A stretch of 64,000 bases of DNA, taken from NCBI GenBank assembly GCA_009664345.1, contig CP043547.1, forward strand, positions 5,608,709 through 5,672,708, read 5' to 3'. The translations under genes and the position numbers were made by a program. The stretch comes from Planctomycetales bacterium 10988 (GTDB lineage Bacteria; Planctomycetota; Planctomycetia; Pirellulales; Pb10988). Below, in pieces: positions 1 to 54,080 of the stretch (position 1 is its first letter; each line of letters begins with the position of its first letter). A model generated the notes under the pieces. The model did not search any database and was not told where the DNA came from. It worked only from the letters and a program-made list of their open reading frames with translations.

Positions 1-450
1 TCAATTGAAGTTCGGCTTCGAGAGTTACGGTTGCCAAAAATCGACAGCATCAAAGCTGCTGCCCCCTTTTCAGACCCGACAATCGCCAAATTACTTGGAG
101 AGACCATTCCCCGGAGAGTCTCGCAAATCGAATCGTCAACATCAACAGTGTCGGCATCAATCAGTCGGATTAAGCAAGCGAAGATGTTAGCTGAGCGTCG
201 GGCGAGATTGAAGGTCGATGTCTACGGACTAATGACGTGTGGGAGAACAACGCAAGTATTGGAAATCTACAAGCGCCAGGGGATCAAGGCGACATTTCAC
301 GACATAGACAGTGATGATGTCGCGAAGGCTGAGGTGAGGACCGCGATCTTGAAGAAGAACGAATTACCGTTGGTGAAAGTGAACGGCATAAGCATAAACG
401 GAAGGGGAGAAGAACTATCATACGAGAGTATTCTCAAATCATGTAAGTAG
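1..450 (+). CDS. Glutaredoxin-like protein, 5' end outside window
   Basis: The frame is open from base 1, so the gene probably begins upstream of the window; the first in-window start is a TTG at 31, giving 139 residues. The last 75 residues look like a glutaredoxin-type thioredoxin fold: a beta strand (VDVYGLMTCGRTTQV) carrying one cysteine, a helix, a second strand, then a Leu-Pro pair at the usual cis-proline site and a glycine-rich turn (KVNGISINGRG). A single cysteine points to a monothiol or non-catalytic form. The preceding 60 residues are polar and helical and match nothing I recognise, so this may be the C-terminal domain of a larger protein. It lies 34 bases before the protease-nuclease gene on the same strand and could share its transcript. 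The fold is inferred from pattern only. Confidence 0.5.
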   Translation, partial: SIEVRLRELRLPKIDSIKAAAPFSDPTIAKLLGETIPRRVSQIESSTSTVSASISRIKQAKMLAERRARLKVDVYGLMTCGRTTQVLEIYKRQGIKATFHDIDSDDVAKAEVRTAILKKNELPLVKVNGISINGRGEELSYESILKSCK

Positions 451-484
451 GATTTTCGTTTTGTAGCTAGTTAATTGTGGACAT

Positions 485-3427: not shown

Positions 3428-3563
3428 TTGACGATCGCTGCATGCTTGGATTGAGATTGACAGATTGATGACTTTGAACTCCGGCCTCAGCAGCTGTGCC
3501 GACCTTAGAAACTGAAGACACTAATCAAGATTGTTTCACCCACTGAGGATTACGAGGATTACC

Positions 3564-32500: not shown

Positions 32501-35500
32501 CCAGCTACAGTTACGATGCCCTCCATCGCTTGACCACCGTGACGGATGCCTTGGGCTATCAAACGCACTTCAGCTACGATGCCAACAGCAACCTCACCGC
32601 TTTCACCGATCAGGCCGGCTCCACGACGAACTACCAATACGACCTCTTGAACCGACTGACCTCGATCACCGATTCGCTTGGCTATCAAGATTGGTACGCC
32701 TACGATGCCGCTGGGAACCTGACCGCTTATACCGATGCCAATGGCCATGCGACGCAATATACTTACGACGCGCTCCATCGGCTGGCGAGCGTGGTCGATG
32801 CCCTGGGGCACGAGGAATTTTATCAGCACGATGCCTCAGGCAATCTCCTCAGCTTCACCGATGCCAACGGCCATGCGACTGCCTTCACGTACGACGCCTT
32901 GAGTCGGCTGACCACCATGACCGACGCCTTGGGCTATCAACGTCATTACGCCTACGATGCGACCAGCAACCTTCTTGCCTTCACCGATCAGGCCGGTTCC
33001 ACAACGAACTATCAATACGATGCCCTCGATCGCGTGACCTCGATCACCGACCCGCTCGGCTACCAGGTGAGTTACGGCTACGATGCCAACAGCAACTTGA
33101 CCTCCTTCACCGACGAAGCAGGCTATACGACGACCTTCCAGTACGACGCCCTCGATCGGCAGACCCAGACCGTCAATCCCTTGGGCGGCATCTTCGAAAC
33201 GGTCTACGATGCGGTTGGCAATGTCGTGCAAGAGATCGACGAACTCGGCCGCACGACGGGTTACGTCTACGATCCCTTGAACCGGATGATCGAGATTCAC
33301 GACCCCCGCAGCACCCTCGCAACCCCGGTCGTGACGACCCTTTCCTACGACGGCGTCGGCAACTTGTTGTCGCTCACCGATCCGCTGGGGCAGACGACCG
33401 AGTACGAATACGACTCCTTGCACCGCTTGATCCTCAGCCGCGATCCCCGGCAACAGACGACCACCTATGCCTACGACCCGGTCGGCAATCTCACCGAGAC
33501 CATCGATCGCAACGGCCGCCGCACGACCTTCAGTTACGACGATCTCGATCGCCTCCTCACCGAGAGCTGGTGGCAAGACACGACGGAGGTCAACCGCATC
33601 GACCTCAGCTACGACCCCGTCGGCAACCTCCTCTCCGCCAGCGATGCCTTCAGCCATTACACCTTTACTTATGACGACCTCGACCGCCTCACCACGACCG
33701 ACAACACCGGCACGCCCGGCCTCCCGCAAGTCGTGCTCAGCTACACCTACGATGCCGTCGGCAATACCCTGGCGGTCAACGACAACCTTGGCGTGCAGCA
33801 GTCCAGCACCTACAATCCGCGGCATGAACTCCTCCGCCGTGAGTGGTCCGGCCTGCCCGACGGTGCCGAGGCCCGCCTCGATTTCGACTACGATTCGCGG
33901 GGCCTGCTGGAATCGATCTCCCGCTTCGGCAACCTGCAGGGGCAGTCGCTGGCGGCCTTCACGCAGTTCGATCATGATGAGCTGGGCCGGCTGACCGACC
34001 TCACCCACACCGATCCGCTGGGGGCGATCCTCGCTGATTACGATTATCAGTACAACGCCGCCCACGAGCTGATTCAGGAGTCGCACCACGGCGAGACGAT
34101 CGACTACACCTACGACCCCGCCGGGCAACTCCTCTCGGCCATTTCCGATCTCGCCCTGCCGGATGAGCAGTATGCCTACGATGAAAACGGCAACCGCACC
34201 GGCGAAGATTACGACCTCGGCGAGAACAATCAGCTCGACTCCGATGGCGTTTACGACTACCAGTACGACCACGAAGGCAATCTCATTCGCCGGACCGAGA
34301 TCGCCACCGGCGAGTACACGCTTTACGCCTACGACCACCGCAATCGCCTGGTTGAAGCCGAAATCTTCTCCGCCGGGGGGATTCTGCTCAAGGAGCTTTC
34401 GTATACCTACGACCTCTTCGACCGGCTAATCGCTCGCACAGTCGATGACGATGGGGAAGGTCCGCAAGAAGCAAAAACTACTTTTACGGTTTACGATGGC
34501 CAACACGCCTGGGCGGACTTCGATGAAAACGGCGACGTCCTCGCCCGATATCTGTACGGCGACCAGATTGATGAACTCCTCGCTCGCTGGCGACCGACGG
34601 AAGGAATCGCCTTCTACCTCACCGATCACCTCGGCACCGTCCGCGACCTCGTCGATACCACCGGCGAGCTTTTGACCCACTACGACTACACCGCCTTCGG
34701 CCTCCTGACCAACATCACTAACCCCGCCTTCGCCGACCGCTTCACCTACACCGGCCGCGAGTTCGACCCTCACCTGAACCTCTATTACTACCGTGCCCGC
34801 TGGTACGACGCCGCCACCGCCCGCTTTCTCTCTCAAGACCCCCTCGCCTTCACCGCCGGCGACACCAACCTCTACCGCTACGTCGGGAATTCTCCTCTCA
34901 ACGCCACCGATCCGACCGGCAACGTGGCAATGAGCGAGTATCGCCCTCAATGGTTTGGCGGTATTTTTAGTGCGTCAAATGACGTAGATTGTGAGGAGCT
35001 GAATAATCAGCTGGAGCAGGCTGAAGAAAGGTACAAAAATGCAAATGACGAATACCGGGCTGCAAAATATTTTCTGCAACTGGCGGATTCAGACGGGCAA
35101 CGGACTTATGGCAAACCCTGGTATAGAATTCGTGGCCGAACCACCGTTGGGCGAGGTTACTTCATTAAGGAATGGGCTGAGGCACAATCAAGGTTCAATG
35201 AAGCTCAACAAGAACAGCACGAAGCTACAAATTTCTTACGAGCTCAGAAGAACGCCTACTTTCGAAATTGTAACCCAAATTATTGGGACAGACGACGAGC
35301 TTCTAGGAGTGGATTGCCTAAGGAGTATCAAGTTGATAAATCGGAGCTGACAAATTATCGCGAAGGGGTTGTTAAGGATGTCGGAACTTTCGTAATTGGT
35401 TTTATTCCTGTTGCCGGAGAAGCCGCTGATTTTGCCGTGATCATCGCTCCGGAAAGCACGCTGGCGGAACGCGGCATAGCTGCTGGTAGCTTAGGTATCA

Positions 35501-36066: not shown

Positions 36067-36076
36067 ATGAAAGAAG

Positions 36077-36484
36077 ATGAGAGATAATATTCCGGTAGCT
36101 ATGTTCCATTCGGCAATGGTAAGAGATCTCTTTACAGAGCCTCTTGTTTCGAAGGATGCACTCTGTTTGATGCTACTTTTACATGCTTGCAAGATACAGC
36201 TTTCTGATCAGGCAAAAGTTGCTGGTGGAACGAAAGGTTTCGAAGCAATTACTACCAGACATGCTTCGAAATTGGTTGCTTCTCTTTTTTCTACAGGCGA
36301 AAAATCTTGTGCGAGCTATTGGTACAATTTGTGGAATGGTCAATGGAGAGGTTACGCACTACTTGAAGAATTTCCTTCAAACCTCAGGACGAACCTACGC
36401 AAGATCAAAACAATAATTGAATCTCATCCATGGATTCGTAAACTTGAGGATGAGGATTGGGATCTTCTAAGTAACTTAGATTAG
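36077..36484 (+). CDS. Putative immunity protein for the Rhs PIN tip
   Basis: 135 residues starting 10 bases after the Rhs stop. It is AT-rich like the toxin tip and unlike the Rhs shell, so tip and gene probably moved together. The protein is helical and soluble (SKDALCLMLLLHACKIQLSD, then FPSNLRTNLRKIKTIIESHP) with no signal peptide. Position, size and base composition are those of Rhs/CDI immunity genes; no family is recognised. The ribosome site is poor, so another start (for example the ATG near 36101) is possible. Confidence 0.6.
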   Translation: MRDNIPVAMFHSAMVRDLFTEPLVSKDALCLMLLLHACKIQLSDQAKVAGGTKGFEAITTRHASKLVASLFSTGEKSCASYWYNLWNGQWRGYALLEEFPSNLRTNLRKIKTIIESHPWIRKLEDEDWDLLSNLD

Positions 36485-36498
36485 CTCTAAATCACTAA

Positions 36499-37200
36499 TT
36501 CTGTTCTAGGAAAACTACTTTTACAGTTTACGAGGGCCAGCACGCCTGGGCGGACTTCGATGAAAACGGCGACGTCCTCGCTCGGTATCTGTACGGCGAC
36601 CAGATCGATGAACTTCTCGCCCGCTGGCGACCGACCGAGGGCATCGCCTTCTATCTCACCGATCACCTCGGCACCGTCCGCGACCTCGTCGATACCACCG
36701 GCGGCATCCTGACTAACCTCACCAACCCCACCTTCGCCGACCGCTTCACCTACACTGGTCGGGAGTTCGATCCGCACCTGAACCTTTATTACTACCGTGC
36801 CCGTTGGTACGACGCCGCCACCGCCCGCTTCCTCTCCCAAGACCCCCTCGCCTTCTCCGCCGGCGATACCAACCTCTACCGCTACGTGGGGAATTCTCCC
36901 CTCAACGCCACCGACCCCACCGGCATGACAACGACGGCTGAATATGAGAGGCAAATTCGCGAAGACCTTAAGGTAGCTGCAGCGGCTGCTCAAAAGGCAA
37001 TAAACCAACGCTTATTACTGGCATTGATACAAGGAGTTCCCTTTCAAGCGGCTGGTCTAATGTGTGTTCATAACGGGATAATCATTTTTTCCAAAACTTA
37101 TTATTTGCCGGTGGTGGACGTTACTAAACTCAATCCGTCTTGTCGAATCCAGAGAAGAAGCAAAGGATCGTTTAACATTTTAGTCCAAATGAACCTTTAG
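36499..37200 (+). pseudogene. Orphan Rhs C-terminal cassette with alternative tip
   Basis: From 36511 the frame repeats the end of the Rhs shell (KTTFTVYEGQHAWADFDENG, then TDHLGTVRDLVDTTGGILTN, FTYTGREFDPHLNLYYYRAR and NATDPTG) nearly identically in DNA to about 34,470-34,920, but with about 11 codons missing after DTTG (LLTHYDYTAFG absent). After NATDPTG a different, shorter tail of about 91 residues follows (EYERQIREDLKVAAAAAQKA, later HNGIIIFSKTYYLPVV). There is no start codon or ribosome site of its own; the frame opens just after a stop at 36498. This is the classic layout of a displaced Rhs tip that can be swapped onto the main gene by recombination in the shared shell. The tail toxin is not recognised and may be truncated. 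Confidence 0.82.
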
Positions 37201-37279: not shown

Positions 37280-37852
37280 ATGGCGGAAAACGAATCTCTA
37301 GACATAGGGAAACCCGGCGGCCAAGGTTGGAAATTAGTCCTTGATGCGATTAAGAAGCACAAGTCACCCTCTGAAGTTGGCAAGCACATTGCACGAAAGT
37401 TGCCGAAAGCCCTTAGCAAGGCCTTCCAAGATTTTGTAGAGAATGGTGTTTCCTTTCATGACTTCCTTGCAAACCGGAATGATAAGGAAGCTCTCACGCG
37501 ATTAGTTCAAAAGTGTCGTAGCCACACATACGCCAACCTGTTTGCGGAGGTAACAGCCATTTCCTCGGGTCGGTCGGATATGGAATTGATCGTTTCTTTT
37601 CAACAAGCAATTATCGAAAGGGTCGGCGACCAAATCAAACACGAAGTTCTAGGTATGGAATGGGAAAGCCTTCCGGATTTGAGAAAGCTTTTGCGAGAAG
37701 CTCTTGACTGTGTTCAACCTGACTTGGAATGGATTGCCAATAAGCTTGCTGAAGAGCCAAGGTGGAAACCTAGGGTGAAGCCAAGAAGAGGCCGGAACAA
37801 AGCCAAGGAACTAAAAGATCTGCTCGGCGTTTCATTGCTGGGAGGTAAATAG
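37280..37852 (+). CDS. Small helical partner of QatC-like protein
   Basis: 190 residues, ATG at 37280 with GGAAG about 10 bases upstream. A glycine-containing N-terminus (MAENESLDIGKPGGQGW) is followed by a helical body (VGKHIARKLPKALSKAFQDF, later FQQAIIERVGDQIKHEVLGM) and a very basic C-terminus (KPRVKPRRGRNKAKEL). The stop is 2 bases before the QatC-like start, so translation is coupled. In Qat systems a small helical protein (QatB) precedes QatC; size, position and glycine-rich front are similar, but I cannot align the two by eye. It could be the substrate or a nucleic-acid-binding partner of the QueC-like enzyme. Confidence 0.7.
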   Translation: MAENESLDIGKPGGQGWKLVLDAIKKHKSPSEVGKHIARKLPKALSKAFQDFVENGVSFHDFLANRNDKEALTRLVQKCRSHTYANLFAEVTAISSGRSDMELIVSFQQAIIERVGDQIKHEVLGMEWESLPDLRKLLREALDCVQPDLEWIANKLAEEPRWKPRVKPRRGRNKAKELKDLLGVSLLGGK

Positions 37853-37854
37853 AA

Positions 37855-39237
37855 ATGACTCCATTCGACATCACGTTTTCGAAACAAGGGGACCCAGAAT
37901 CAACCACTCTGACTGCTGGAAAAGATTTTCATTTGGACGTTGAACGAATTGAATCTTTCTCCCTCCGCCCTTTGCCTTCACCGATGCTTGATTTGCTCCG
38001 TATTGCAATGGCCGTCTACGTCGTAGATAGATTGGTTCGACGTGGGAAACATCAAAGCTGGTCGCGCGAAATCAGACTAACTGTCGGTCTCATTGAACCG
38101 AATCTATGGAATTCCGATGAGATTCGAGATCAGCTTCTCAACTGCCTTGAATTTCTCACCGACGACCATTGGGACATGTCTTTTCATTTGGATGATCGCC
38201 GAATGTCCCAAAAACAACGGACGTTCGAGATGTCTCAAGAACCATCGCGCATTTGCCTTTACAGCGGCGGACTTGATTCTGCTGCGGGGTTGGGAAGTCA
38301 GATTCTCAACGATTTGGAACGACCTACTTTTCCGGTCACGGTTTGGCATCAAGGTCTTCAGCGGCACAACGTAAGGAAGCAAATTAAACTGCTACATAAC
38401 AAGCTACCTGCTGCCAAGATAAGCTCGCTTATTTTCAAGGCTCACTTTTTGTGGAACTCGCAGGTGCGTGGGCGAGAAGAGTCGACTCAACGGAGCCGTG
38501 CGTTCCTGTTTATGGTTGCTGGAATTGTTTTCGCGTATCTCTGTGATTCGCCCGAAGTTGAAGTGTATGAATCAGGAGTGGGTGCCATCAACCTTCCGCT
38601 GATGGCTGGCATGACCGGAACTCGAACGACCCGAAGCACGCATCCAACTTTTTTGAGGCTTATTTCTGAGCTTGGGAGCCTCGTGGCTAATCAAACCATA
38701 TCCATCACGTTACCTTTTTGGAATCGCACAAAAGGTCAGATGGTTCGGTCGTTGTTGCAAAATGGTTTACAAGAGTTAGCAGTGGCAACGGTCTCCTGTG
38801 TATCGTACCCACTGAGAGAAAAACAATCCAAACAATGCGGATTTTGTCCTGCTTGCATCTTTCGACGACAAGCAATGATCGTAGCGGGTATCCCCGAAGC
38901 TTCGCATACTTACAAGTATGACCTCTTTGGTAATTCGGACGGTTCGGGGGATCACTCCGAGCAATTTGACTTTCTTAAAGCCTACCTAATGCAAGTATCT
39001 GAACTTGAGCATATCCAAGCAGGGAAGCCTCTACCAGAACGAATTCGAAGGCATTTGATTGGGACTGGAATTCTGAGCCTAGGCGAATCTTCAGAACAAT
39101 ACAATCGCCTGCTGAGAGAATACCGAGATGAATGGCAGAGTGTCATCAATTCGGCGAAGAGTTTTGGCCACCCGTGGCCGCATTGGATGGAGACGGGTAA
39201 AGGGGCCTTGGAAGGAGCTAACCGTGCTTCAGCTTGA
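37855..39237 (+). CDS. QueC-like PP-loop enzyme, QatC-like
   Basis: 460 residues; ATG at 37855 with GGGAGG about 10 bases upstream. The N-terminal 125 residues (LRPLPSPMLDLLRIAMAVYV, then DRLVRRGKHQSWSREIRLTV) are the extension that I associate with QatC of the Qat anti-phage system. From about 131 comes the ATP-pyrophosphatase PP-loop SGGLDS (137-142), and at the C-terminal side the zinc-binding cysteines of QueC (C315, C328, C331, C334 in CGFCPACIFRR). QueC makes preQ0 from carboxy-deazaguanine; QueC-like proteins in Qat and type IV CBASS are thought to make related deazaguanine or N-terminal amide linkages in immunity. The protein is about twice as long as housekeeping QueC, and no queCDE genes are nearby, so a defence role is favoured. 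It overlaps the next gene by 14 bases. Confidence 0.85.
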   Translation: MTPFDITFSKQGDPESTTLTAGKDFHLDVERIESFSLRPLPSPMLDLLRIAMAVYVVDRLVRRGKHQSWSREIRLTVGLIEPNLWNSDEIRDQLLNCLEFLTDDHWDMSFHLDDRRMSQKQRTFEMSQEPSRICLYSGGLDSAAGLGSQILNDLERPTFPVTVWHQGLQRHNVRKQIKLLHNKLPAAKISSLIFKAHFLWNSQVRGREESTQRSRAFLFMVAGIVFAYLCDSPEVEVYESGVGAINLPLMAGMTGTRTTRSTHPTFLRLISELGSLVANQTISITLPFWNRTKGQMVRSLLQNGLQELAVATVSCVSYPLREKQSKQCGFCPACIFRRQAMIVAGIPEASHTYKYDLFGNSDGSGDHSEQFDFLKAYLMQVSELEHIQAGKPLPERIRRHLIGTGILSLGESSEQYNRLLREYRDEWQSVINSAKSFGHPWPHWMETGKGALEGANRASA

Positions 39238-40444
39238 GTCAATTGATCCCCGATCATTCGGCAAGCGTATCGTAGAGGCGAGAAAGGCCCGTGGTGTTAC
39301 CCAGAAGGAGGTGGCAGAGTTTCTCGGATGTAGTCGGCCAACGTACATCGCCATCGAGAAGGGTGAACGCCCTCTCAACCCCGACGAAGTGCGCAAAATA
39401 GCTTCTTTCTTGGGGCAGCGGGTTCATGAGCTTGTTCGCCCAGCAGAACCTGTAGTTGATTTGCAGCCGCATCTTCGAGCGGTTGTAGGGAAAATAAGGG
39501 CCGCCGATGAACAGCAGCTGTACGCTGGAATTGATGAACTTCAGCGTTTTGCCGAAGACTATCGAGAGCTAGAACGTCTGGCGAATGCTCAGCTTCCATA
39601 CAACTATCCTCCGACGGTTGAATTGGGCGGCCGCATTGATCCGGCTCAACTGGCAGAATCCATCTCGGTGAGAGAGCGGCAGCGTCTGGGACTTGGGGAC
39701 CAGCCAGTAAGCAATTTGAGAAGCCTGTTGGAGCTAGATGTCGGCCTGAGGATTTTCTACGGCGTATTACCCTCAAACATTGCTGGAATGTATGCCTACA
39801 CGACCGACTTAGGTTGTTGTATTCTCATTAATCGGAACCACCCTGCCGAAAAACGAAGAGCCTCCATGCTTCATGAGTACGGTCACCTTATCGTCGATCG
39901 CTATCAACCGGGCATTGACTACCTGACCTTTCCCGGGAGAAAACCAGCCAACGAGAGATTCGCGGAACAATTCTCCCTATGTTTTCTAATGCCCACAAGT
40001 TCCGTTCACAAACGATTTCAGGAAATTGTCACTACGACTGGCGATTTTCAAGTCGGTGACCTTTGCCGTCTTAGTCACTTTTATTTTGTTTCCGTCGAAG
40101 CGATGGCGCTTCGCCTCGAACAATTAGGACTGATGCCCAGAGGGACTTGGCAAGCGTTGATGGAGTCGGAACTCGCTCCGAGGAAAGCCCAAGAAATGCT
40201 GGAGTTACCATCGCAACCAATTTCCAGTGACCCGTTTTCCAAGCGATATACGTTTCTCGCCGTTCAAGTTTTTGAACAAGCCAAAATAAGTCAGGGACAG
40301 TTAGCACGATTTCTTCGTTGTGATCCTCTATCGGCCAGAGAAATCGTCGCAGAGTGCCGTGCCAGCCTACAGATTGAAGAAAGTGGAGTATCGAGACAAC
40401 TCGAGCTTCCATTTGACAGATCATTGCTCGATGACCAGCGATAA
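39224..40444 (+). CDS. XRE HTH - ImmA/IrrE metallopeptidase protein
   Basis: The GTG at 39224 has a strong AAGGAG seven bases upstream and overlaps the previous stop by 14 bases; the product has 406 residues. Residues about 10-70 are an XRE helix-turn-helix (RIVEARKARGVTQKEVAEFL, then GCSRPTYIAIEKGERPL). Residues about 190-280 hold the ImmA/IrrE-type zinc site MLHEYGHLIVDR, with a following FAEQFSLCFLMP stretch. Such XRE-ImmA fusions regulate mobile elements and toxin-antitoxin pairs by cleaving or releasing a repressor, and frequently pair with PIN proteins. It probably represses this operon and controls the PIN gene 17 bases downstream. The C-terminal 120 residues are helical and may bind the toxin. 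Confidence 0.9.
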   Translation: MLQLESIDPRSFGKRIVEARKARGVTQKEVAEFLGCSRPTYIAIEKGERPLNPDEVRKIASFLGQRVHELVRPAEPVVDLQPHLRAVVGKIRAADEQQLYAGIDELQRFAEDYRELERLANAQLPYNYPPTVELGGRIDPAQLAESISVRERQRLGLGDQPVSNLRSLLELDVGLRIFYGVLPSNIAGMYAYTTDLGCCILINRNHPAEKRRASMLHEYGHLIVDRYQPGIDYLTFPGRKPANERFAEQFSLCFLMPTSSVHKRFQEIVTTTGDFQVGDLCRLSHFYFVSVEAMALRLEQLGLMPRGTWQALMESELAPRKAQEMLELPSQPISSDPFSKRYTFLAVQVFEQAKISQGQLARFLRCDPLSAREIVAECRASLQIEESGVSRQLELPFDRSLLDDQR

Positions 40445-40461
40445 AAGGAGGTATCTGGGCA

Positions 40462-41031
40462 ATGAAGAATATCGTGGTGGATGCTTGCTGTTTGATCAAT
40501 CTGGTCGCGGCAGGACATATTCTTCCAAACCCATCGAGCACTTCGAAGCCGAAGACGAAATGGTTTCCTGACAAGCTTCATGTGTCGGCAACGGTGATGA
40601 GGGAAGCCCTTTATGTTAAGCAGGCCGATCTAGATGATCCGACAAAGTTGGTTAAGAGCGAAATCGATCTCTCGAAGCTCATTCAGCAAAAGATCCTTCA
40701 TGGCTGTGATATTGAAGGAATGCATGAGTCCCGCTTGTTTGTGGAGTGTGCCGCTAACCTCGACGATGGAGAAGCCGCCTCTCTGGCGATCGCAAAGAGC
40801 CGGTCCTGGACGCTTGCCACGGATGACCGACTGGCCGCAAAATTTGCCACAAGCATGGAGGTTGGGGTATTGAATACGGCTCAGCTAGTAAAAATGTGGG
40901 CACTTCATTCCTTGGCAAGTGAAGCGGTGATTGAGGAAGCACTTAAGAATATCCAGACTTACGCGAAATTTGTTCCACGCGAACAATCAAAAGGATATGA
41001 TTGGTGGGGCAAGCACACCCCTAATGTTTGA
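40462..41031 (+). CDS. PIN-domain ribonuclease, putative effector/toxin
   Basis: 189 residues with AAAGGAGGT about 12 bases before the ATG. PIN signatures: NIVVDACCLINL at the start (first Asp), LDDGEAASLAIA in the middle (acidic cluster) and TLATDDRLAAKFA (last Asp). The first half has an inserted segment compared with short VapC toxins, and the C-terminal 40 residues are basic and helical (SKGYDWWGKH). PIN genes following an XRE-ImmA protein are a known toxin-antitoxin layout. Here the pair is embedded behind a QatC-like gene, so the PIN protein is the likely effector. The activity would be RNA cleavage; target unknown. Confidence 0.85.
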   Translation: MKNIVVDACCLINLVAAGHILPNPSSTSKPKTKWFPDKLHVSATVMREALYVKQADLDDPTKLVKSEIDLSKLIQQKILHGCDIEGMHESRLFVECAANLDDGEAASLAIAKSRSWTLATDDRLAAKFATSMEVGVLNTAQLVKMWALHSLASEAVIEEALKNIQTYAKFVPREQSKGYDWWGKHTPNV

Positions 41032-41457: not shown

Positions 41458-42203
41458 GGGGCTTAGGACGCCCAGGGGTGATTGAGGTAGACTTCACCCT
41501 AGGAAACAAGGCAAAAATCGCTATTACAAAAATTCACGAATCCGAGAGGCAAAATTCCGGCAGTTGCTCAAAGCCTTTGCCATGGATTTCACCGCCACCG
41601 ATACCGCCGAGCTGACAGGCCTTTCTATCCGTCGAGTCAATGATATTTATCTGCCGATTCGAAGGCGAATCGCTCAGGACTGTGAGCGAAGCTCTCCCCT
41701 TCAAGGAGAGGTCGAAGTCGATGAATCTTACTTTGGCCCCATACGCATTCGCGGTAAGCGAGGTCGTGGGGCAGGAGGCAAAACGATCGTCTTCGGCATT
41801 TTCAAACGCAACGGCCACGTCTACACCGAGATCGTGCCCGACGCCAAGAAACCACGCTTTTAAAGGCAATTCGTGGGCAAGTCAGCCTGGAAACGATCCT
41901 TCATTCCGACGGCTGGCGAGGCTACAATGGCCTGGTGGATGTCGGCTATCAAAAGCACCTTCGCGTCCGTCATGGCGAGAATGAATTTGCCAATCCGAGC
42001 TCGCACATTAACGGGATCGAATCCTTTTGGAGCTTTGCCAAACGCCGCTTGATCAAGTTTAACGGAGTCCCTCAACATACTTTTTATTTACACTTGAAGG
42101 AAACCGAGTTTCGTTTTAACAAACGCCGTGATAATGTTTATAAAGTCCTTCTAAAAATACTACGAAAACATCCCCTTTGACAACCTGGGCGTCCTAAGAC
42201 CCC
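41458..42203 (+). mobile_element. IS1595-family insertion sequence, frameshifted
   Basis: The terminal inverted repeats match: GGGGCTTAGGACGCCCAGG at 41458-41476 and its complement (one extra T) at 42184-42203. A 7-base target duplication AAACAAT flanks the element (41451-41457 and 42204-42210), so the insertion is recent on this scale. The size (746 bases) and the transposase type fit short IS1595-family members. Confidence 0.92.
41564..42180 (+). pseudogene. IS1595-type transposase, one frameshift
   Basis: Recognisable homology begins near 41520 without an ATG (RKQGKNRYYKNSRIREAKFR). The first frame carries the helix-turn-helix (TELTGLSIRR-like region) and the DDE start VEVDESYFGPIRIRGKRGRG, typical of ISXO2-like/IS1595 transposases, and stops at 41861. 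Coding continues one base earlier in another frame: LLKAIRGQVSLETILHSDGW, then YQKHLRVRHGENEFANPSSH and NGIESFWSFAKRRLIKF. The shift lies near CGCTTTTAAAGG. A programmed -1 shift is possible in this family, but a simple indel is also plausible. The element is probably immobile unless the shift is used. Confidence 0.85.
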
Positions 42204-42369: not shown

Positions 42370-43323
42370 ATGAGTGACACACAATCGACTGCCAAGTTGC
42401 CGAACCAGCTTATCTGGCTTGCTGATGCTCCACTGTTCGTCGACTCGCATCAGATCGACTGTTTCTTTGATGCCGTCGTCCAACCGTCATCTAAAGTCGT
42501 CAAATGGCTGAGCAGTAGAGATGACGGAAGTAAAGTCGCACTATCCGCTAAAGGAAAAGGTGGAGGTAAACTTGACGTTTCTAGTGCTCTGGGACCGTTA
42601 GGCAAATTCTTCCCTGGCCTCGGAGAGATTTCTGCTGAGATAGAAGGAAGTGGAAGAGGAGATCTCACAAGTAACAATCATTCGGCAACAGAGTACGCCC
42701 CGATACAGAGTCCCCAACGCCAACTACTTGGTCTGACCCTGCATTATTTAGCCAATCAATCAGAGCGGGTATTCCTGATCGACGATCCGGCAGATGAAAG
42801 TTGGCGTACAAAAGACGTTCTAACAGACGTGCCTCGTGCTTTAGTCTTTCTTGAGCTTCACGGCACGGAATCGAATCAACAATCCGAAGAACACTTCGGC
42901 ACAATGTTGATTCCAACCGCAGCTGAGTTCGATGACGGCGTTGTTGTTCCCATCTATCCAGAGCTTACCCGAGCGTCAGGCGAGAAGCCTCCCAAGTATC
43001 CTGAGACAGGCTCGGCAGTAAAACTGTTGAACGACAGACGCGAATACTGGAAGTGGTTCAGTAAGGAGTTTAGTGCGGATCAGGCTATGCGAGCCATCGA
43101 ACGGGCGGCTTCGCAGCACGGACGCATTCGATGGATTGACTTTCGCGTCCCAATCACAAATCAGGGTGACACCTTGCATCTCCATGTTGTTCCGGCTGCA
43201 AAGTACGACACGGGTGTCTTCGCGTACAATTTCGTCAAACGAGGATTCAAGCATGGTCTTCGCTTGGTTGGTACGTTGAAGTCAGAGCCGGATATGAATG
43301 TACTTGCCATCTATGAGCGCTGA
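42370..43323 (+). CDS. Unknown first protein of the DpdA-like operon
   Basis: 317 residues; ATG at 42370 with AAAGGAG about 10 bases upstream. No known motif. After a short N-terminal segment (PNQLIWLADAPLFVDSHQID) there is a glycine/lysine-rich stretch (SAKGKGGGKLDV), followed by an alpha/beta body containing FLELHGTESNQQSEEHFGTM and GRIRWIDFRVPITNQGDTLH. It ends in a beta-rich portion (HVVPAAKYDTGVFAYNFVKR). No signal peptide or membrane helix is seen. It is 26 bases before the DpdA-like gene and co-directional with helicase and nuclease genes, so it is probably a dedicated component of that system. Confidence 0.75.
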   Translation: MSDTQSTAKLPNQLIWLADAPLFVDSHQIDCFFDAVVQPSSKVVKWLSSRDDGSKVALSAKGKGGGKLDVSSALGPLGKFFPGLGEISAEIEGSGRGDLTSNNHSATEYAPIQSPQRQLLGLTLHYLANQSERVFLIDDPADESWRTKDVLTDVPRALVFLELHGTESNQQSEEHFGTMLIPTAAEFDDGVVVPIYPELTRASGEKPPKYPETGSAVKLLNDRREYWKWFSKEFSADQAMRAIERAASQHGRIRWIDFRVPITNQGDTLHLHVVPAAKYDTGVFAYNFVKRGFKHGLRLVGTLKSEPDMNVLAIYER

Positions 43324-43349
43324 TTATTTGTCGCCGTCAAATCAAAAGG

Positions 43350-45122
43350 GTGTGTTATGAAAAAGGAAGCCAATACTTGGTAGGATTCACCGAACAGAAA
43401 TCAAAGCGACAACTCGTCGTGTTGGGTTGCTCAGACCGCAAACTGGAGGTCGATGGCACGTTGCCAGCGGTCTCTATGTACGACGGCCCTATGTACCGCG
43501 TGTTGAGAAACTACCTGCGAGATCATCACTGGCCGAACAGTCTTTCAATCGCAGTGCTTTCAGCGAAGTACGGGCTCATCGGAGGGATTTCTCCTATTGA
43601 GTCCTACAACCAACGCCTGACGGCCGATCGCGCCCGAGAGTTGTCTGGCAACGTGACGGAAACGCTCCTGAGTTGGGGGATGAGCCACAATCGCGTGGAT
43701 TTTGTTCTCGGCAAAGATTATGCCGCTATTATCGACGAACCGGCTCTGAGAACATTTTACAAATCTTGCGAAGTTGTTCCTGGCGGAATCGGTCTGAAAC
43801 AACAGCAGTTCCGGGATCTGCTTTACTCTGCCAGTCGTCAGTCACCGCGCCGAGGCGATCGGAAACTCACGCCTAAGACTCGACCACTATATTTTTTGCC
43901 GGACTGGGACGATTTTATCGACGAGAGTTATGACTATGAGAACGATCAGTTTTCGTCGCCAACACGAGCAGATCGTCATGAGAAGCATACGATCCAACTG
44001 ATGCGTCCAAAACGAATGTGCGACGGTGTTCTGGTCAGTCTCGCACAAAACCTTGGAACCAAAGGCTTGCTAAAGCGAGTTGACGCAACTGATACGGAAT
44101 CACTGCGTCCCAAATCCGTCAAATCGCACTTCGGCTTGACAGAAAACCAGTGGGGGTTCGGTGACTGCGGCGCGTTCTCTTATGTTGCTGAGCCGGAGCC
44201 AACAATTAGCGTAGAGCAAGCAGTTGCACTCTATGATTTATACGACTTTGATCTAGGTGCGAGTGTCGACCACATACCGGTTGCAGCCCTGCCGGGCGAA
44301 AATGGCATGGTTGCACAGTCCGAATACAAGCGCCGGCGTCGTATTTCCCTGACCAGAAGTAACGCTGCGGACTTCATCTCAGAACACTCCCGTCGGAAGG
44401 CTCGTTTCACACCGATTGGTGTCATTCAGGGACTCGGAGCCAAGAGTTACGCCAACCAAATTGGCGATTATCTTGAAATGGGCTATGACCACATCGCGCT
44501 CGGCGGATTAGTTCCTCGGAAAGACTCTGATATTGAAGCAATCGTCAAAGCGGTTCACAAAGAGCTGAAACGACACAAACAGCATCCGTGGGTGCATCTT
44601 CTGGGCGTGTTTCGTCCTCGATTGCAGGAACTGTTTCGCGAGTTAGGAATCGCGAGTTTCGACAGCGCGACCTATTTCAGGAAAGCGTGGTTGCGATCGG
44701 ACCAGAACTACTTGGGCAGGAATGGTGAATGGTATGCGGCAATTAGGGTGCCACCGTCTGGTGATCCCCGAGTACTGAAGCGGCTCAAGCAGTCGAACGT
44801 GAGCCACTGCAAGATCCAGCGTCTCGAAGACGCGTCGCTGTGTGGACTCCGAGATTATGCTCGTGGAGCAGCAGCAATCGACGACGTGTTGGCTGTGGTG
44901 ATGGAATATGACCGACTGCTCGCGAGGGCGGAAGATCTGGATTCACGTTTGCTTGACTCATACCGAAGAACATTGTTGGCAAAACCGTGGACGAGTTGCG
45001 AGTGTCCAATGTGTAAGAAGCTCGGGATCGACGTGCTGATCTTTCGGGGCAAAAATCGGAACAAAAGTCGAGGTGCCCACAACACGTTGATGCTCTACCA
45101 CATGTTGGGTACACGGAAATAA
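43350..45122 (+). CDS. dpdA-like: DpdA-like 7-deazaguanine transglycosylase with N-terminal DUF6884-like domain
   Basis: 590 residues from a GTG at 43350; the site AAAAGG lies directly before it, so a slightly different start is possible. Residues about 18-165 match the DUF6884 pattern (VVLGCSDRKLEVDGTLPAVS, then LSIAVLSAKYGLIGGISPIE). Residues about 190-590 resemble the TIM barrel of tRNA-guanine transglycosylases, with a substrate Asp in GASVDHIPVA, the loop GYDHIALGGLVPRKD and a C-terminal CECPMCKKLG cysteine pair. In the dpd clusters known from genomic islands and phages, DpdA inserts preQ0 into DNA. The following helicase and nuclease genes match a restriction role against unmodified DNA. 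Assignment as DpdA rather than a queuine TGT rests on the DUF6884-like N-terminus and on the neighbours. Confidence 0.78.
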   Translation: MCYEKGSQYLVGFTEQKSKRQLVVLGCSDRKLEVDGTLPAVSMYDGPMYRVLRNYLRDHHWPNSLSIAVLSAKYGLIGGISPIESYNQRLTADRARELSGNVTETLLSWGMSHNRVDFVLGKDYAAIIDEPALRTFYKSCEVVPGGIGLKQQQFRDLLYSASRQSPRRGDRKLTPKTRPLYFLPDWDDFIDESYDYENDQFSSPTRADRHEKHTIQLMRPKRMCDGVLVSLAQNLGTKGLLKRVDATDTESLRPKSVKSHFGLTENQWGFGDCGAFSYVAEPEPTISVEQAVALYDLYDFDLGASVDHIPVAALPGENGMVAQSEYKRRRRISLTRSNAADFISEHSRRKARFTPIGVIQGLGAKSYANQIGDYLEMGYDHIALGGLVPRKDSDIEAIVKAVHKELKRHKQHPWVHLLGVFRPRLQELFRELGIASFDSATYFRKAWLRSDQNYLGRNGEWYAAIRVPPSGDPRVLKRLKQSNVSHCKIQRLEDASLCGLRDYARGAAAIDDVLAVVMEYDRLLARAEDLDSRLLDSYRRTLLAKPWTSCECPMCKKLGIDVLIFRGKNRNKSRGAHNTLMLYHMLGTRK

Positions 45123-45135
45123 TAAGGCTTGAACA

Positions 45136-47523
45136 ATGATACCGTTGAACGAATTTATGCCTCGAATCTGCGCAGCTATCCCACGCTTCGCAAAGAATTC
45201 ACCGAATCCCCAGCAAAGCAAGTGTATCTTGCACTCAGAGTCTACGCCTCTAATGATCGTGGCGGGGCCTGGCTCGGGCAAGACAACTGTGCTCGTACTA
45301 CGAGCCTTACGCTTCGTGTTCGTGAACGGGTGGATGCCTGAGCAAATTGTAATAACGACATTCACCCGTAAGGCCGCCGATGAACTCAGGGCTAGACTTA
45401 TTGAGTGGGGTCTACTCGTTCGTGACCATCTCAAGTCGAGTCCGCCACAGAACGCCACACAGCAATTCCACGATTGGCTCGACAACATTGACATCAACAG
45501 ATTTGTCACGGGCACGCTAGACGCATTATGTGAAGAGTTACTGACCACACATCGCGACCCTAGCGATCCAGTTCCGGTTTTGGTCGAGGGTTTTGTAGGA
45601 AACGGTATTCTCGCCCAACGTGCGCTTTTCCCAAATCAAGCACATAGCGATCAAGATCTATCAACCTACCTATCGGCATTTACGCGCGACGGAGGTCCTC
45701 CACCCAATTTCGGTGACACTCTGGGGATATGCCGAACAATACTCGATCGGTTCGTGCATGACATGGTGGATCTGAAGTCATTCCAAGGTGTGACGGCAGA
45801 CCGTAATGCTCGGACACTACTGGTGACGGCTGTCAAGAACTACCGCGATTTTATGGCTGACGGATCGAGGATGGACTTTGCTCTTCTAGAAGAAACATTC
45901 TTGGAGCGGCTACGTCAAGGCAGACTTCAGAGGTTCACGCAAGGCGTCGACGCGATGTTGATCGACGAGTATCAGGATACCAATCCACTCCAAGAGTCCA
46001 TTTACGTTGAACTAGTCAGCGCAACTTCTAGCTCATTGACCATAGTTGGGGATGACGATCAATCGCTATACCGTTTTCGGGGTGCAACCGTTGAGTTGTT
46101 CAATAATTTTCAATCTCGATTCTCAGCAGCCTGCAAAACGAGCGTTACACCTCATCGAGAAGACTTGACAGACAACTATCGCTCTACGCCCGAAATTGTT
46201 GAGTTCTTCAACAACTTCATCACCTGCGATCCCAATTTTCAGGCAGCACGGGTGACGCCACCAAAACCTGTTATCGTTTCTAACAAGTCATCCAACGGAG
46301 TTCCGGTCCTCGGCTTGTTCAGATCCGATCCCGATATTCTAGCTGACGACTTGACGTCATTCTTGATGGATGTCTTCAGGAATGGTGGGAGAGCTATCGA
46401 CGGTGTCGACATAGTTGCAGATCAAAAAGGCGGGGATTTTGGTGACGCAGTTCTTTTGTCGCATACCGTAAACGAATATGGCTCTCAGTTTGGTCGGAAT
46501 CCTCCCAAAGAACGGCTGCCAAAATTGTTGCGGGATCGTCTAGCAATCCAAGGTATTGACGTGTTCAACCCTCGTGGACGACTCCTGCGGGACATTCCGC
46601 GAGTCCAACAGTTGCTCGGTGTAGTCTTGGAGTGCATTGACGGACAGGCGCAGATTCAGTCACAACTTAGATTACGTGCAGGGGCCACTCGCTATCTCGA
46701 CGAGTGGCGTCAAGCCGGTACTGCAGTCATAAATTCCAATCCACACCCCACGCATCCACACACTTTGGCAGATTTCGTTCAATCTTGGCGAAGTCGCCAG
46801 CCTCAGGCGCAAATGCAAAATTGGCCGGGCGAATGGCCACTCCTGGAACTTTGCTTCAAAGTGATCAGCTGGCTTCCATTCTTCCAAGATGATCCAGAGG
46901 GGCAGGTTTACCTTGAAGCGATTTCTCGATGTGTCGCGCAAGCGGCAACATTCTCATCGTACCGGTCACAAATTCTGAACGGACAGGGGGTACACGATGA
47001 GAACAGTGTCAAGAAAGCCATCCAAGATATCTTGGCACCGATTGCTGAGTCAGCGGTTGAAGTGGATGAGGAGGTCATGCCACACGTTCCTCGCAATCGT
47101 TTTCCAATTATGACTATCCATCAGTCAAAAGGTTTGGAGTTTCCTTTGGTAATTGTGGATGTTGCATCTGACTACAAAACGAATCACCACAAGAATCGCT
47201 TCCGACGATTTCCCGAAACCCCATCTTCGGTGCAGAACATGGAGGACGATTTCGCTGCGCATTGCAACATTGGACCACTCCGGCAAACAAGAACAGGCCT
47301 TGAACGATCTTTCGACGATCTGGTTCGTCTCTATTACGTGGCATACAGCCGGCCCGAATCCGTGTTGCTGTTGGTCGGGCTAGACCAGTGCCTTCGCTAT
47401 AACACTAACATCAAGCATGTGGCACTTAGTTGGGCATCTGATGAGTCGTGGGCGTGGAAAAGGCCTGTTGCCGGAAAGCCGCCCGCGATCGCGGTCAATG
47501 ACATTCCATTGCGACTTATTTGA
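45136..47523 (+). CDS. UvrD/Rep-type superfamily 1 helicase
   Basis: 795 residues. Walker A MIVAGPGSGKTT at about 40-50, motif Ia FTRKAADELRARL, Walker B MLIDEYQDTNPLQ, motif III GDDDQSLYRFRGA, a DNYRSTPEIVEFF motif and, near the end, QSKGLEFPLVIVD and LVRLYYVAYSRPESVLLLVG (motifs V-VI). This is a complete UvrD-like translocase, but it lacks the nuclease domain of RecB/AddA; that function is supplied by the next gene 9 bases downstream. As part of the DpdA operon it probably translocates on and opens DNA for the nuclease when modification is absent. Alternative: a general repair helicase; the operon context argues against this. Confidence 0.9.
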   Translation: MIPLNEFMPRICAAIPRFAKNSPNPQQSKCILHSESTPLMIVAGPGSGKTTVLVLRALRFVFVNGWMPEQIVITTFTRKAADELRARLIEWGLLVRDHLKSSPPQNATQQFHDWLDNIDINRFVTGTLDALCEELLTTHRDPSDPVPVLVEGFVGNGILAQRALFPNQAHSDQDLSTYLSAFTRDGGPPPNFGDTLGICRTILDRFVHDMVDLKSFQGVTADRNARTLLVTAVKNYRDFMADGSRMDFALLEETFLERLRQGRLQRFTQGVDAMLIDEYQDTNPLQESIYVELVSATSSSLTIVGDDDQSLYRFRGATVELFNNFQSRFSAACKTSVTPHREDLTDNYRSTPEIVEFFNNFITCDPNFQAARVTPPKPVIVSNKSSNGVPVLGLFRSDPDILADDLTSFLMDVFRNGGRAIDGVDIVADQKGGDFGDAVLLSHTVNEYGSQFGRNPPKERLPKLLRDRLAIQGIDVFNPRGRLLRDIPRVQQLLGVVLECIDGQAQIQSQLRLRAGATRYLDEWRQAGTAVINSNPHPTHPHTLADFVQSWRSRQPQAQMQNWPGEWPLLELCFKVISWLPFFQDDPEGQVYLEAISRCVAQAATFSSYRSQILNGQGVHDENSVKKAIQDILAPIAESAVEVDEEVMPHVPRNRFPIMTIHQSKGLEFPLVIVDVASDYKTNHHKNRFRRFPETPSSVQNMEDDFAAHCNIGPLRQTRTGLERSFDDLVRLYYVAYSRPESVLLLVGLDQCLRYNTNIKHVALSWASDESWAWKRPVAGKPPAIAVNDIPLRLI

Positions 47524-47532
47524 GGACTTCAC

Positions 47533-48699
47533 ATGGTGCTATCAAAGAAGCGAGGGAATGAACTAATCCCTCAATACAGTCTGACCGGCGACTTGCTCTC
47601 ATACCTTCGTTGCGGCTTGCAATATCGGTACCACAACGGTAGTTCGCTTCCGCCATCACGTCCCGTTCAGTTGTGGTTCGGCGAGTTCATTCATGGAGTG
47701 ATGGAAGCGGCGTACCGCATCTGGAGCACGACAAATCCTGCGTTTCCTTGGCCAAGCAATCCGACTCCGTACCGACAAACTCCTCCGACAGGAAGGAGTG
47801 CTCATGACATTGGTGTGATCGGTGATGTGGTCGAAGGCACTCTTAGGGCACAAGGCAAGAGCGCTCGCAGCAAAGATACGCGAGACAACGCCTATATTCG
47901 TGCTCAGAAGGCTGTCAACGAATTAGGGCCACATCTTTTTCCCCTTATTGCTAGTGCAGAAGAAAAGGTCATTGGCACGCGCACTATCCCCAACAGCTCG
48001 GCAAACGCGTCGAGATCTCAACTGTATGAACTCCATGGTATAATCGATGTTGTGACAGATGTGCAGCTTTCGGGGGCGACAACCAGTAATGTGATTCGGC
48101 AAGCAATTCAAGATTCCTGCCCAGCTTTGTCAGGTAGCTACGAGGTAATCGTTGACTACAAAGGATCTCGGCGTCCAGCGATCAACCAGCCGTACTGGCA
48201 ACAGGGCGAATGGCAGGTGCAGACCTACGGATGGTTGCGCACTCGACAAGCAAACTCTTTGCCTGTTGCAGCAGGTGTGTTGCTTTACGTCAACGAATTG
48301 TCCCCGGTTTCTAGTGATTTAGTGTCCTTACGCCGTGAAGTCGGCAACAACACCACCGATGTTATCCCGGCAAATGGCACGCCGGACTCATATGCCCTGA
48401 ACGCCTGGAGACAAGGCAGTGCAATCCCGAACTTTTCACTAGCGTTTCGTTTGGCTAGAGCGATACGCGTCGTCCCGATCGATCCGACAAGCCAAGCAAC
48501 GGCAACTAACAACTTTGATCAAGTAGTTGCATCAATCGAGCAATGTGTTGGGCATGAGGCGATTGCCGGAGCGATCAATCCTAACTGGGACCCATGTGGT
48601 GACGAGGAAACATGTGCAGCGTGTGACTTCCGGCATTTCTGCCCAAGTCCGCATCCTCACAAGAAAGGGTACGTTGTTGGGGCACCATCAGCACCTTAG
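47533..48699 (+). CDS. RecB/Cas4-like PD-(D/E)XK nuclease with Fe-S cysteines
   Basis: 388 residues from the ATG at 47533. Motifs in order: a first cysteine in YLRCGLQYRY, then GEFIHGVMEAAY (the GxxxH-type helix), a DVVTD strand, EVIVDYKGSRRP (the D...xYK catalytic strand) and QVQTYGWLRTRQ (the QxxxY helix). The C-terminus has ETCAACDFRHFC. One early and three late cysteines are the 4Fe-4S pattern of AddB, Cas4 and related nucleases. Together with the helicase it forms a split AddAB-like engine. In this operon it probably degrades DNA lacking the DpdA mark. The start has no strong ribosome site, suggesting coupling to the helicase stop. Confidence 0.85.
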   Translation: MVLSKKRGNELIPQYSLTGDLLSYLRCGLQYRYHNGSSLPPSRPVQLWFGEFIHGVMEAAYRIWSTTNPAFPWPSNPTPYRQTPPTGRSAHDIGVIGDVVEGTLRAQGKSARSKDTRDNAYIRAQKAVNELGPHLFPLIASAEEKVIGTRTIPNSSANASRSQLYELHGIIDVVTDVQLSGATTSNVIRQAIQDSCPALSGSYEVIVDYKGSRRPAINQPYWQQGEWQVQTYGWLRTRQANSLPVAAGVLLYVNELSPVSSDLVSLRREVGNNTTDVIPANGTPDSYALNAWRQGSAIPNFSLAFRLARAIRVVPIDPTSQATATNNFDQVVASIEQCVGHEAIAGAINPNWDPCGDEETCAACDFRHFCPSPHPHKKGYVVGAPSAP

Positions 48700-48803: not shown

Positions 48804-49924
48804 GTGCGTCGTCAGATCTCACACCATCCATCAACGGCCGTCATGTACGCTCGCGTCTCGTCTGACGAGCAGGAGAAAGAAGGCTTTTCAATTCCAGCCC
48901 AGCAAAAGTTGCTACGGGGCTATGCCGCCGAAGAAGGCATCGACATCGTCGAAGACTACATCGACGTCGAGACTGCCAAGGTAGCAGGAAGGACCGGCTT
49001 CAATTCGATGGTCGAGTTCTTTGAGAAGCAGGCGAAGATCAAAGATGACGAGCGTCGCTGCAAAACCATTCTGGTCGAGAAGACTGACCGGCTGTATCGC
49101 AATCTGAAGGACTACGTCACGCTGGATGAACTCGGGGTCGACGCTTCGTCAAAGAGAACGTCGTGCTGTCCCCGAACTCGCACTCATCCGAGCGATTCAT
49201 GCACGGCATCAAGTTGTTGATGGCTCGCCAGTACGTCGACAACCTCAGCGAGGAAGTCAAGAAGGGGATGCTGGAAAAGGCCGAACAGGGGATTTGGCCC
49301 AGCAAGGCACCGATTGGATATTTGAATGTCGAGGGGCCGAACGGGAAGAAAGTAGTCATTCCCGATCCTGAAACGGGGCCGATCATCAAGCGGATCTTCG
49401 AGCGATACGTCGCTGGAAACATTTCAATGGAAGAAGTTGGCCAGCTGGCGATGGAGGAAGGCTTACCTCTGAAGCGGGAAGGGAACTATCGCGCGGTAGT
49501 CCAGTACATCCTCAAAAGTCGGTTCTACTACGGCGACTTCATCTACAAAAAGAAGGTCTACAAGGGTATCCACGAAGGGTTGGTGAGTCGCGAATGCTGG
49601 GATAAGGTCCAAGAAGTCCGAGCAAAGCGTAACGCCGACAAGCTGCGGAAGCCCAAAAATCGGAAGTCGTTTGCCTTCGCTCGCATGATCGCATGCGGAC
49701 ATTGTGGCTGTTCGCTGATCGACGAATTGAAAAAGGGCAAATACATCTACTACTACTGCACGCATTACCGGGGAAAATGCGATGAGCCATACGTTCGCGA
49801 GGAGGTTCTGGAGGAGAAGTTCACGGAAATCCTGCGGACGCTCCATTTCGACGATGAAGCGCTCGACTGGATGCGTCGGGCACTGCGTGAGAGCCAGGCC
49901 GACGAGCAGAAGTATGACAGTTAA
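48804..49924 (+). pseudogene. Large serine recombinase, one frameshift
   Basis: GTG start at 48804 with AAGGAG eight bases upstream. The first frame has the resolvase signature VMYARVSSDEQEKEGFSIPA (catalytic Ser in the ARVSS motif) and ILVEKTDRLYRNLKDYVTLD, and breaks near 49135. The continuing frame starts RFVKENVVLSPNSHSSERFM and runs through the recombinase domain (GMLEKAEQGIWPSKAPIGYL) and the zinc ribbon (ACGHCGCSLIDELKKGKYIY, with later cysteines) to a TAA at 49924. One missing base after GTCGA would restore it. The length of about 370 codons lacks the long coiled coil of full-size enzymes. It is therefore inactive and probably a relic of an earlier integration. Confidence 0.9.

Positions 49925-52044: not shown

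Positions 52045-52061
<17 letters not shown>
51543..52061 (+). CDS. Unknown protein coupled to serine recombinase
   Basis: 172 residues, ATG at 51543, with AGGAGGAGC further upstream. Mostly helical and acidic toward the end (PDDEDAFVELLAEFFWSHRK). The last 17 bases overlap the start of the recombinase at 52045, so the two are translationally coupled. In some integrative elements a small helical protein of this kind acts as a directionality factor or recombinase partner; I have no motif to support this here. Unrecognised family. Confidence 0.7.

Positions 52062-54080
<2,019 letters not shown>

Follow-up and report, generated by a model that had tools for sequence, protein, structure and literature searches.

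A DpdC-core–DpdA fusion linked to a UvrD helicase and an Fe–S nuclease: a candidate compact Dpd-like modification–restriction system in a planctomycete

Why should an enzyme that exchanges bases in DNA share an operon with a helicase and a nuclease? This question is raised by positions 42370–48699 of a 64,000-nucleotide stretch of the genome of Planctomycetales bacterium 10988 (contig CP043547.1, positions 5,608,709–5,672,708; hereafter, the window). A preliminary description of the sequence had proposed that a DpdA-like transglycosylase marks DNA here and that a helicase–nuclease destroys DNA that lacks the mark. Our comparisons of sequence, structure and gene neighbourhood suggest that the operon probably encodes a compact Dpd-like modification–restriction system, in which a UvrD helicase and a Cas4/AddB-type nuclease replace DpdD–K.

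The list of open reading frames (ORFs) of the window contains four genes at the positions first described, all on the same strand, with intergenic gaps of 26, 13 and 9 bp and an AAAGGAG sequence upstream of the first ATG. Pfam and NCBIfam matches bore out the identities assigned to the DUF6884–DpdA fusion, the UvrD helicase and the PDDEXK_1 nuclease, which follow the first gene, U317, in that order. The features are as follows (loci and genomes or records are numbered with the prefixes L and G, respectively).

42370–43323, forward strand: U317, an accessory gene of 317 amino acids without a family match; homologues lie beside the module in L016 and L026.
43350–45122, forward strand: predicted DpdC-core/DpdA fusion, 590 amino acids, GTG start; NCBIfam DpdA NF041059, 346 bits; profile and model matches to 7ui4.
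43416–43772, forward strand: DUF6884/DpdC-like domain of the fusion, residues 23–141; Pfam, 9.4e-8; hhalign match to a DpdC profile.
43890–45104, forward strand: DpdA transglycosylase domain of the fusion, residues 181–585; NF041059 and invariant residues.
45136–47523, forward strand: UvrD-type superfamily 1 (SF1) helicase, 795 amino acids; PF00580, 1.1e-44; motor motifs.
47533–48699, forward strand: Cas4/AddB-type Fe–S PD-(D/E)XK nuclease; PF12705 (PDDEXK_1), 2e-12; invariant residues.

The transglycosylase half of the fusion exceeded the NF041059 cut-off of 200 bits. A profile of five fusion relatives matched the DNA-guanine transglycosylase structure 7ui4 with an E value of 6.5e-85, compared with 0.002 for an archaeal tRNA-guanine transglycosylase (TGT). 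The top Foldseek match of an AlphaFold model of the fusion (pLDDT 75) was also 7ui4, annotated as 'DNA preQ0 insertase DpdA' (2.1e-26; best tRNA TGT, 3e-7), and VIA-align superimposed the model on 7ui4 with a Z score of 23.8 at 4.7 Å over 386 residues. The aligned rows span model residues 169–590, that is, the DpdA half, and the DUF6884 half lies outside this structural comparison. Residues D272, D438, C550, C552, C555 and H577 are invariant among the relatives, and by analogy with TGT and DpdA enzymes they would have catalytic and zinc-binding roles. By family, profile, fold comparison and tree, the transglycosylase is DpdA rather than a tRNA enzyme, in agreement with the preliminary description. 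The relatives align from about residue 18–20, so the true start may lie slightly downstream of the annotated GTG.

The N-terminal DUF6884-like domain was likewise confirmed (32.7 bits; cut-off, 30), and profile comparison sharpened its identity to DpdC-like. Alignment of the fused DUF6884 domains with a profile of three DpdC proteins by hhalign gave 91.7% (E = 7.6e-7, 108 columns). The domain carries CxxxK (C27, K31) and LSAxxG (L70–G75) motifs, both of which also occur in DpdC; they have been proposed to contribute to the DUF6884 active site, within a YaaA-like fold for which modelling suggests base flipping (PMC11701544). GATOR-GC is reported to assign DUF6884 as the DpdC domain (PMC11888242), and DpdC is elsewhere given as DUF328/PF03883, a related family (PMC12839542). 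The DpdC of a canonical cluster on an Enterobacter cloacae plasmid (L030; PADLOC DpdC, 6e-142) matched DUF6884 at 6e-5, under its cut-off. Because the DUF6884 half is homologous to the DpdC core and the rest matches DpdA, the gene at 43350–45122 is, on sequence comparison, a fusion of the two. Distant DUF6884–TGT/DpdA fusions were seen at L022 (6955–9168), L031 (1074–3149) and L032 (9573–11543), the DUF6884 domain of L022 being judged from its similarity to L031 and L032. These loci carry DpdE/F-type genes or SF2 helicases, indicating that such a fusion is not unique to the UvrD–nuclease module.

A neighbourhood survey of DpdA homologues, suggested in the preliminary description, revealed the order fusion–UvrD–nuclease in all ten distinct loci that hold a full-length fusion, from Planctomycetota, Acidobacteriota, Desulfobacterales and one IMG/VR contig. 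Among 392 genomes of the phylum, 12 had some match to the fusion and five, including that of strain 10988, a full-length one; in each of the other four, UvrD and the nuclease followed. The genome-contig scans used DpdA queries only. The first, with a single-protein query, gave no matches. Six loci came from the second, of which two were repeats; the new ones belong to Thermoguttaceae, another planctomycete, Thermoanaerobaculia and Desulfobacterales. A scan of viral contigs added L029. L025, L028 and L046 (contigs of L017, L019 and L029, respectively) were left out before counting, and L008 (G234), on a contig of 4,267 bases, is outside the neighbour counts. Across 57 close relatives, fusion matches were confined to strain 10988 itself and G167, so the distribution is patchy. 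In G167, a PLD–SNF2 helicase, an Eco57I-type methylase and a DprA-like gene lie directly 5′ of the module (L018, 960–8387).

The reciprocal search, with the nuclease as the query, found only DpdA-bearing records, which supports a real link between the marking enzyme and the helicase–nuclease, as first suspected. Matches occurred in 4 of 72,556 plasmid records, all four of which are among the 39 plasmid records with a DpdA match (26 of them over the transglycosylase region); the chance of this is about 1e-14 if the two were independent. The Halobaculum plasmid match is weak, at 22.6% identity. Three of the 392 planctomycete genomes (including that of strain 10988) also matched, all with the module, as did two viral contigs, both with DpdA. 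Among 50,697 phage records there were no nuclease matches, and one record had DpdA matches.

The pair is also found in other architectures. A Bradyrhizobium plasmid (L036) carries queC, queD, queE, dpdB, dpdA, dpdB and a DpdC-like gene divergent from UvrD–nuclease, and an unannotated Rhizobium plasmid (L037) carries UvrD–nuclease followed by homologues of DpdC, DpdB, DpdA, DpdB, QueE, QueD and QueC. On a Picosynechococcus plasmid (L031), a 691-amino-acid DUF6884–DpdA protein and a UvrD–nuclease pair are about 9 kb apart. A phage record with tail sheath, tape measure and baseplate matches (G442) has a stand-alone DUF6884 gene directly before UvrD–nuclease at one site (L047) and UvrD–nuclease–DpdA at another (L051), the two pairs belonging to different lineages. 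In maximum-likelihood trees of 18 rows each, rhizobial DpdA grouped with canonical DpdA, and the window-type UvrD clade of 12 (support 100/99) took in rhizobial, cyanobacterial and one phage copy. In the DpdA tree, L017 and L019 form a sister pair (100/100), and so do L024 and L016 (99/100), yet L019 and L016 have UvrD genes of other lineages at the corresponding position. The UvrD of L016 has a very long branch and an unsure placement, and some other inner forks are weak. Because the pair joins different DpdA lineages and sister DpdA proteins carry differing UvrD lineages, the marking and helicase–nuclease modules read as having been re-paired and replaced in place, which would be hard to explain without a joint function.

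If the pair stands in for the usual restriction genes, the two should not coincide. With E. cloacae DpdD, F, G, H, I, J and K and a partial DpdE as phmmer queries (threshold, 1e-5), no homologues of DpdD–K were found at 12 loci, namely the window, the nine other fusion loci, L036 and L037, the flanks available at the searched loci ranging from 2 bases to 10 kb. The usual dpdD–K genes are thus absent here, consistent with the remark in the preliminary description that known dpd clusters carry other restriction genes. The same queries matched DpdE/F/H in L032, DpdE/F/G in L022, DpdH/J in L021 and DpdJ in L038; L021, L022 and L032 are DpdA loci without the pair. The pair and DpdD–K therefore never coincide in these 12 + 3 loci, which is what replacement of the restriction genes by the pair would predict. 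The DpdD, DpdI and DpdK queries matched nowhere, so the absence of those three is less firm.

Genes for a supply of 7-cyano-7-deazaguanine (preQ0) are present in the host: QueC (252 bits), an adjoining QueE-like frame (37% identity, 1.5e-9) and a further two PTPS genes. In four of the ten fusion loci (L016, L017, L019 and L024), QueD is encoded beside the module.

The helicase and the nuclease are encoded as two separate genes, not as one polypeptide. The motor motifs of UvrD are intact (G44–T50 and D277–E278) and invariant across 14 aligned relatives. In the nuclease, four cysteines (C27, C361, C364 and C370), H54, D172, D208-x-K210 and Q228-x3-Y232 are invariant in 13 aligned relatives; its Cas4 matches are weak, and its profile found no solved structure. 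A search with the L019-type nuclease gave hits in seven of the 392 genomes: three with the DpdA module, three with UvrD–Cas4 fusions and one with a long frame (G283). The three planctomycete UvrD–Cas4 fusions adjoin DNA methylase genes, with a ResIII gene confirmed in two of the three, and UvrD–Cas4-like fusions are described beside type III restriction–modification and Dcm genes (PMC5704561), which gives a precedent for the mechanism proposed below.

U317, which the preliminary description suggested might be a recognition or specificity factor, had no match in Pfam, PADLOC, NCBIfam or PHROGs, and its profile found no solved structure. Homologues were seen in three of the ten fusion loci, upstream here and in L016 and downstream in L026. 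Little flanking sequence is available at L023 (1.2 kb and 2 bases), upstream of L026 (1.4 kb) and downstream of L027 (1.6 kb), so the absence of U317 from L023 and L027 is not firm and three of ten is a lower bound. Strong matches occurred in two of the 392 genomes, both with the module, and none were found on plasmids or viral contigs; a weak match in G359 was rejected because a longer ORF covers it on the opposite strand. A fold model from a two-row alignment was unusable (pLDDT 41). U317 is specific to the module yet optional, an accessory gene; its occurrence in three of ten loci at differing positions does not support the proposed role.

In the mechanism that we infer, host-encoded QueD, QueE and QueC would make preQ0, and the DpdA half would exchange guanine in DNA for it. 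The DpdC-core half would then flip the inserted base and hydrate its nitrile to yield 2′-deoxy-7-amido-7-deazaguanosine (dADG). UvrD and the Fe–S nuclease would form a two-subunit, ATP-driven helicase–nuclease, akin to a split UvrD–Cas4 or a small AddAB, that degrades DNA without the mark, standing in for DpdD–K; DpdB would be dispensed with, and U317 would be an optional partner. Candidates for telling marked from unmarked DNA are the helicase, the DUF6884 half and U317.

Several observations weigh against this mechanism. The fused domain corresponds to the N-terminal part of DpdC, the C-terminal half being absent, which makes nitrile hydration by the fusion uncertain; the PADLOC DpdC model matched at 0.026 only. 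No recognition subunit was identified. No DpdB was found in the whole host genome with a rhizobial query or in the window with an E. cloacae query, which matched L021, L036 and L037 and none of the fusion loci; DpdB, which the Salmonella system requires, is described as perhaps dispensable in some clusters (PMC12839542). The host preQ0 genes lie elsewhere in the genome, with no que genes next to the module in the window. The pair is missing from 22 of the 26 plasmid records with DpdA and from three DpdA loci of the phylum survey, L020 and, both in G107, L021 and L022; L020 has neither the pair nor DpdD–K homologues. L038 is an exception to mutual exclusion, having a DpdJ-like helicase together with a weakly related UvrD–nuclease pair. 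Finally, the similar gene sets of phage G442 make a use outside host defence possible.

A tentative variant is that the mark acts as a chemical Chi: the helicase–nuclease might enter at ends and degrade DNA as far as a 7-deazaguanine, there to stall or switch to recombination mode. If so, restriction would be end dependent, with no requirement for a sequence-specific cutter, and marks on self DNA would also act as a repair signal; repair and self-recognition would then rely on one helicase–nuclease design.

Other explanations can be weighed against a modification–restriction system. The pair could be a repair partner that clears lesions, abasic sites or covalent adducts of base exchange or processes the ends of marked DNA. 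UvrD and Cas4/AddB-type nucleases are normally repair enzymes, a Clostridiales operon of unfused UvrD and Cas4-like genes has been interpreted as repair (PMC5704561), and the Bacillus subtilis DUF6884 protein YfjM is listed among interactors of DNA lesions (PMC11701544). We nevertheless consider repair unlikely, given the mutual exclusion of the pair and DpdD–K in the 12 pair loci and the three contrasting DpdA loci, and given that most DpdA plasmid records lack the pair, so that marking can do without it. It is very unlikely that the logic is reversed, with the enzyme marking invading DNA, or phage DNA bearing the mark, and the helicase–nuclease destroying marked DNA as in type IV-like systems. 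DUF6884 could read a flipped modified base (PMC11701544), and the arrangement at L047 would suit this role, but a marking enzyme expressed constitutively from this operon would also act on the host chromosome, and the known Dpd system is described as protecting marked DNA (PMC11888242, PMC12839542). Less probable still is a selfish function, in which a mobile-element gene set degrades competing or host DNA for the benefit of the element. The serine recombinases and tRNA gene downstream (see below) and the tailed phage with DpdA, DUF6884 and two UvrD–nuclease pairs favour this explanation, but most loci are on bacterial chromosomes or plasmids and the same enzymology would be needed, so that it bears on the beneficiary and not on the mechanism. 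The least probable explanation is a tRNA enzyme beside an unrelated helicase–nuclease: the fold is common to tRNA TGTs and there is a weak Pfam TGT match (22.4 bits; cut-off, 26.3), but 7ui4 is by far the nearest structure, the tree (which contains no tRNA TGT) groups the fusion with DpdA proteins, and the neighbourhood is conserved in all ten loci.

Among known systems, the operon resembles Salmonella Montevideo-type Dpd in having DpdA, a DpdC-type domain, a preQ0 supply and a linked set of DNA-destroying genes. It differs in that the DpdC core is fused to DpdA, DpdB and DpdD–K are lacking, and UvrD and an Fe–S nuclease take the place of the DpdE/F/J helicases and the phospholipase D (PLD) nuclease DpdK; a canonical Dpd label was therefore rejected. 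UvrD–Cas4-like fusions similarly tie a UvrD motor and a PDDEXK_1/Cas4-like nuclease to a DNA-modification enzyme, but are described as one polypeptide with methyltransferases (PMC5704561), whereas here two genes accompany a 7-deazaguanine transglycosylase. The haloarchaeal BRIGADE systems share a 7-deazaguanine cluster and, according to a preprint, PD-(D/E)xK nucleases that now and then take the place of PLD nucleases next to YprA helicases (PMC12458937). They are defined there by YprA-type helicases; the YprA-like DpdJ query matched L038 and L021 and nothing in the window, a PADLOC scan of 17 window ORFs (for UvrD, the best 25 of 54 matches considered) likewise gave none, and BRIGADE was rejected. 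In AddAB/RecBCD, too, an SF1 motor works with an Fe–S PD-(D/E)XK nuclease, but the subunits here are smaller, UvrD has no nuclease domain and there is a genetic tie to DpdA. Gabija was rejected because the helicase neighbours are DpdA and PDDEXK_1 and not GajA (an OLD/TOPRIM nuclease); in the PADLOC scan, the helicase matched GajB because the UvrD motor is shared.

The host genome is a single contig of 6.65 Mb, in which G+C is lower around the operon (about 0.46–0.53) than in the window up to 35 kb (about 0.60). Downstream lie a serine recombinase gene in two overlapping frames (48804–49924) and a second large serine recombinase with an overlapping tRNA-Pro gene (52045–54080), the last recombinase gene overlapping the tRNA at 54006–54080. 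These are signs of an integrated element; a repeat search around the island found no att-like flanking repeats, and promoter-like and terminator-like sites showed no excess over shuffles. Immediately 5′ of the operon, an IS1595-type transposase remnant spans two frames (41564–42180). Beyond it is a possible second defence operon (37280–41031) with a gene of unknown function (37280–37852), a QatC/QueC-like gene (37855–39237; 205.7 bits, QatC cut-off 280), a helix-turn-helix (HTH) plus M78 peptidase gene and a PIN-like gene. The QatC/QueC-like, M78–HTH and PIN genes were rejected as parts of the system, being separated from it by the transposase remnant and without homologues in L016–L022, L023, L024, L026, L027 and L029. 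Elsewhere in the window are a 1307-amino-acid FtsK/HerA protein matching SspH and Mads-8 (56306–60229) and direct repeats of 226 and 239 nt, 88–89% identical and about 2 kb apart (34474–36925), at the end of a 5162-amino-acid ORF (20578–36066). At 485–5843, the window has Endonuclease_NS plus trypsin-like proteins and lipase plus trypsin-like proteins; the Bradyrhizobium plasmid L036 has a non-specific endonuclease, a trypsin-like peptidase and a serine protease near its dpd genes (1–3249), perhaps by coincidence.

We found no description of the DpdA–UvrD–nuclease set in the literature searched, although it may be mentioned in the main Dpd papers or elsewhere. A 2025 review describes the restriction activity tied to ADG marking as not explored further (PMC12707154). 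Eight genes make up the known presumptive restriction cluster. In this operon, marking and restriction would be reduced to three core genes for recognisable enzymes, and protection by a 7-deazaguanine mark would become testable with three purified proteins. Our findings suggest that marking enzymes and DNA-destroying arms can be swapped as modules, which are found in bacteria, plasmids and a tailed phage.

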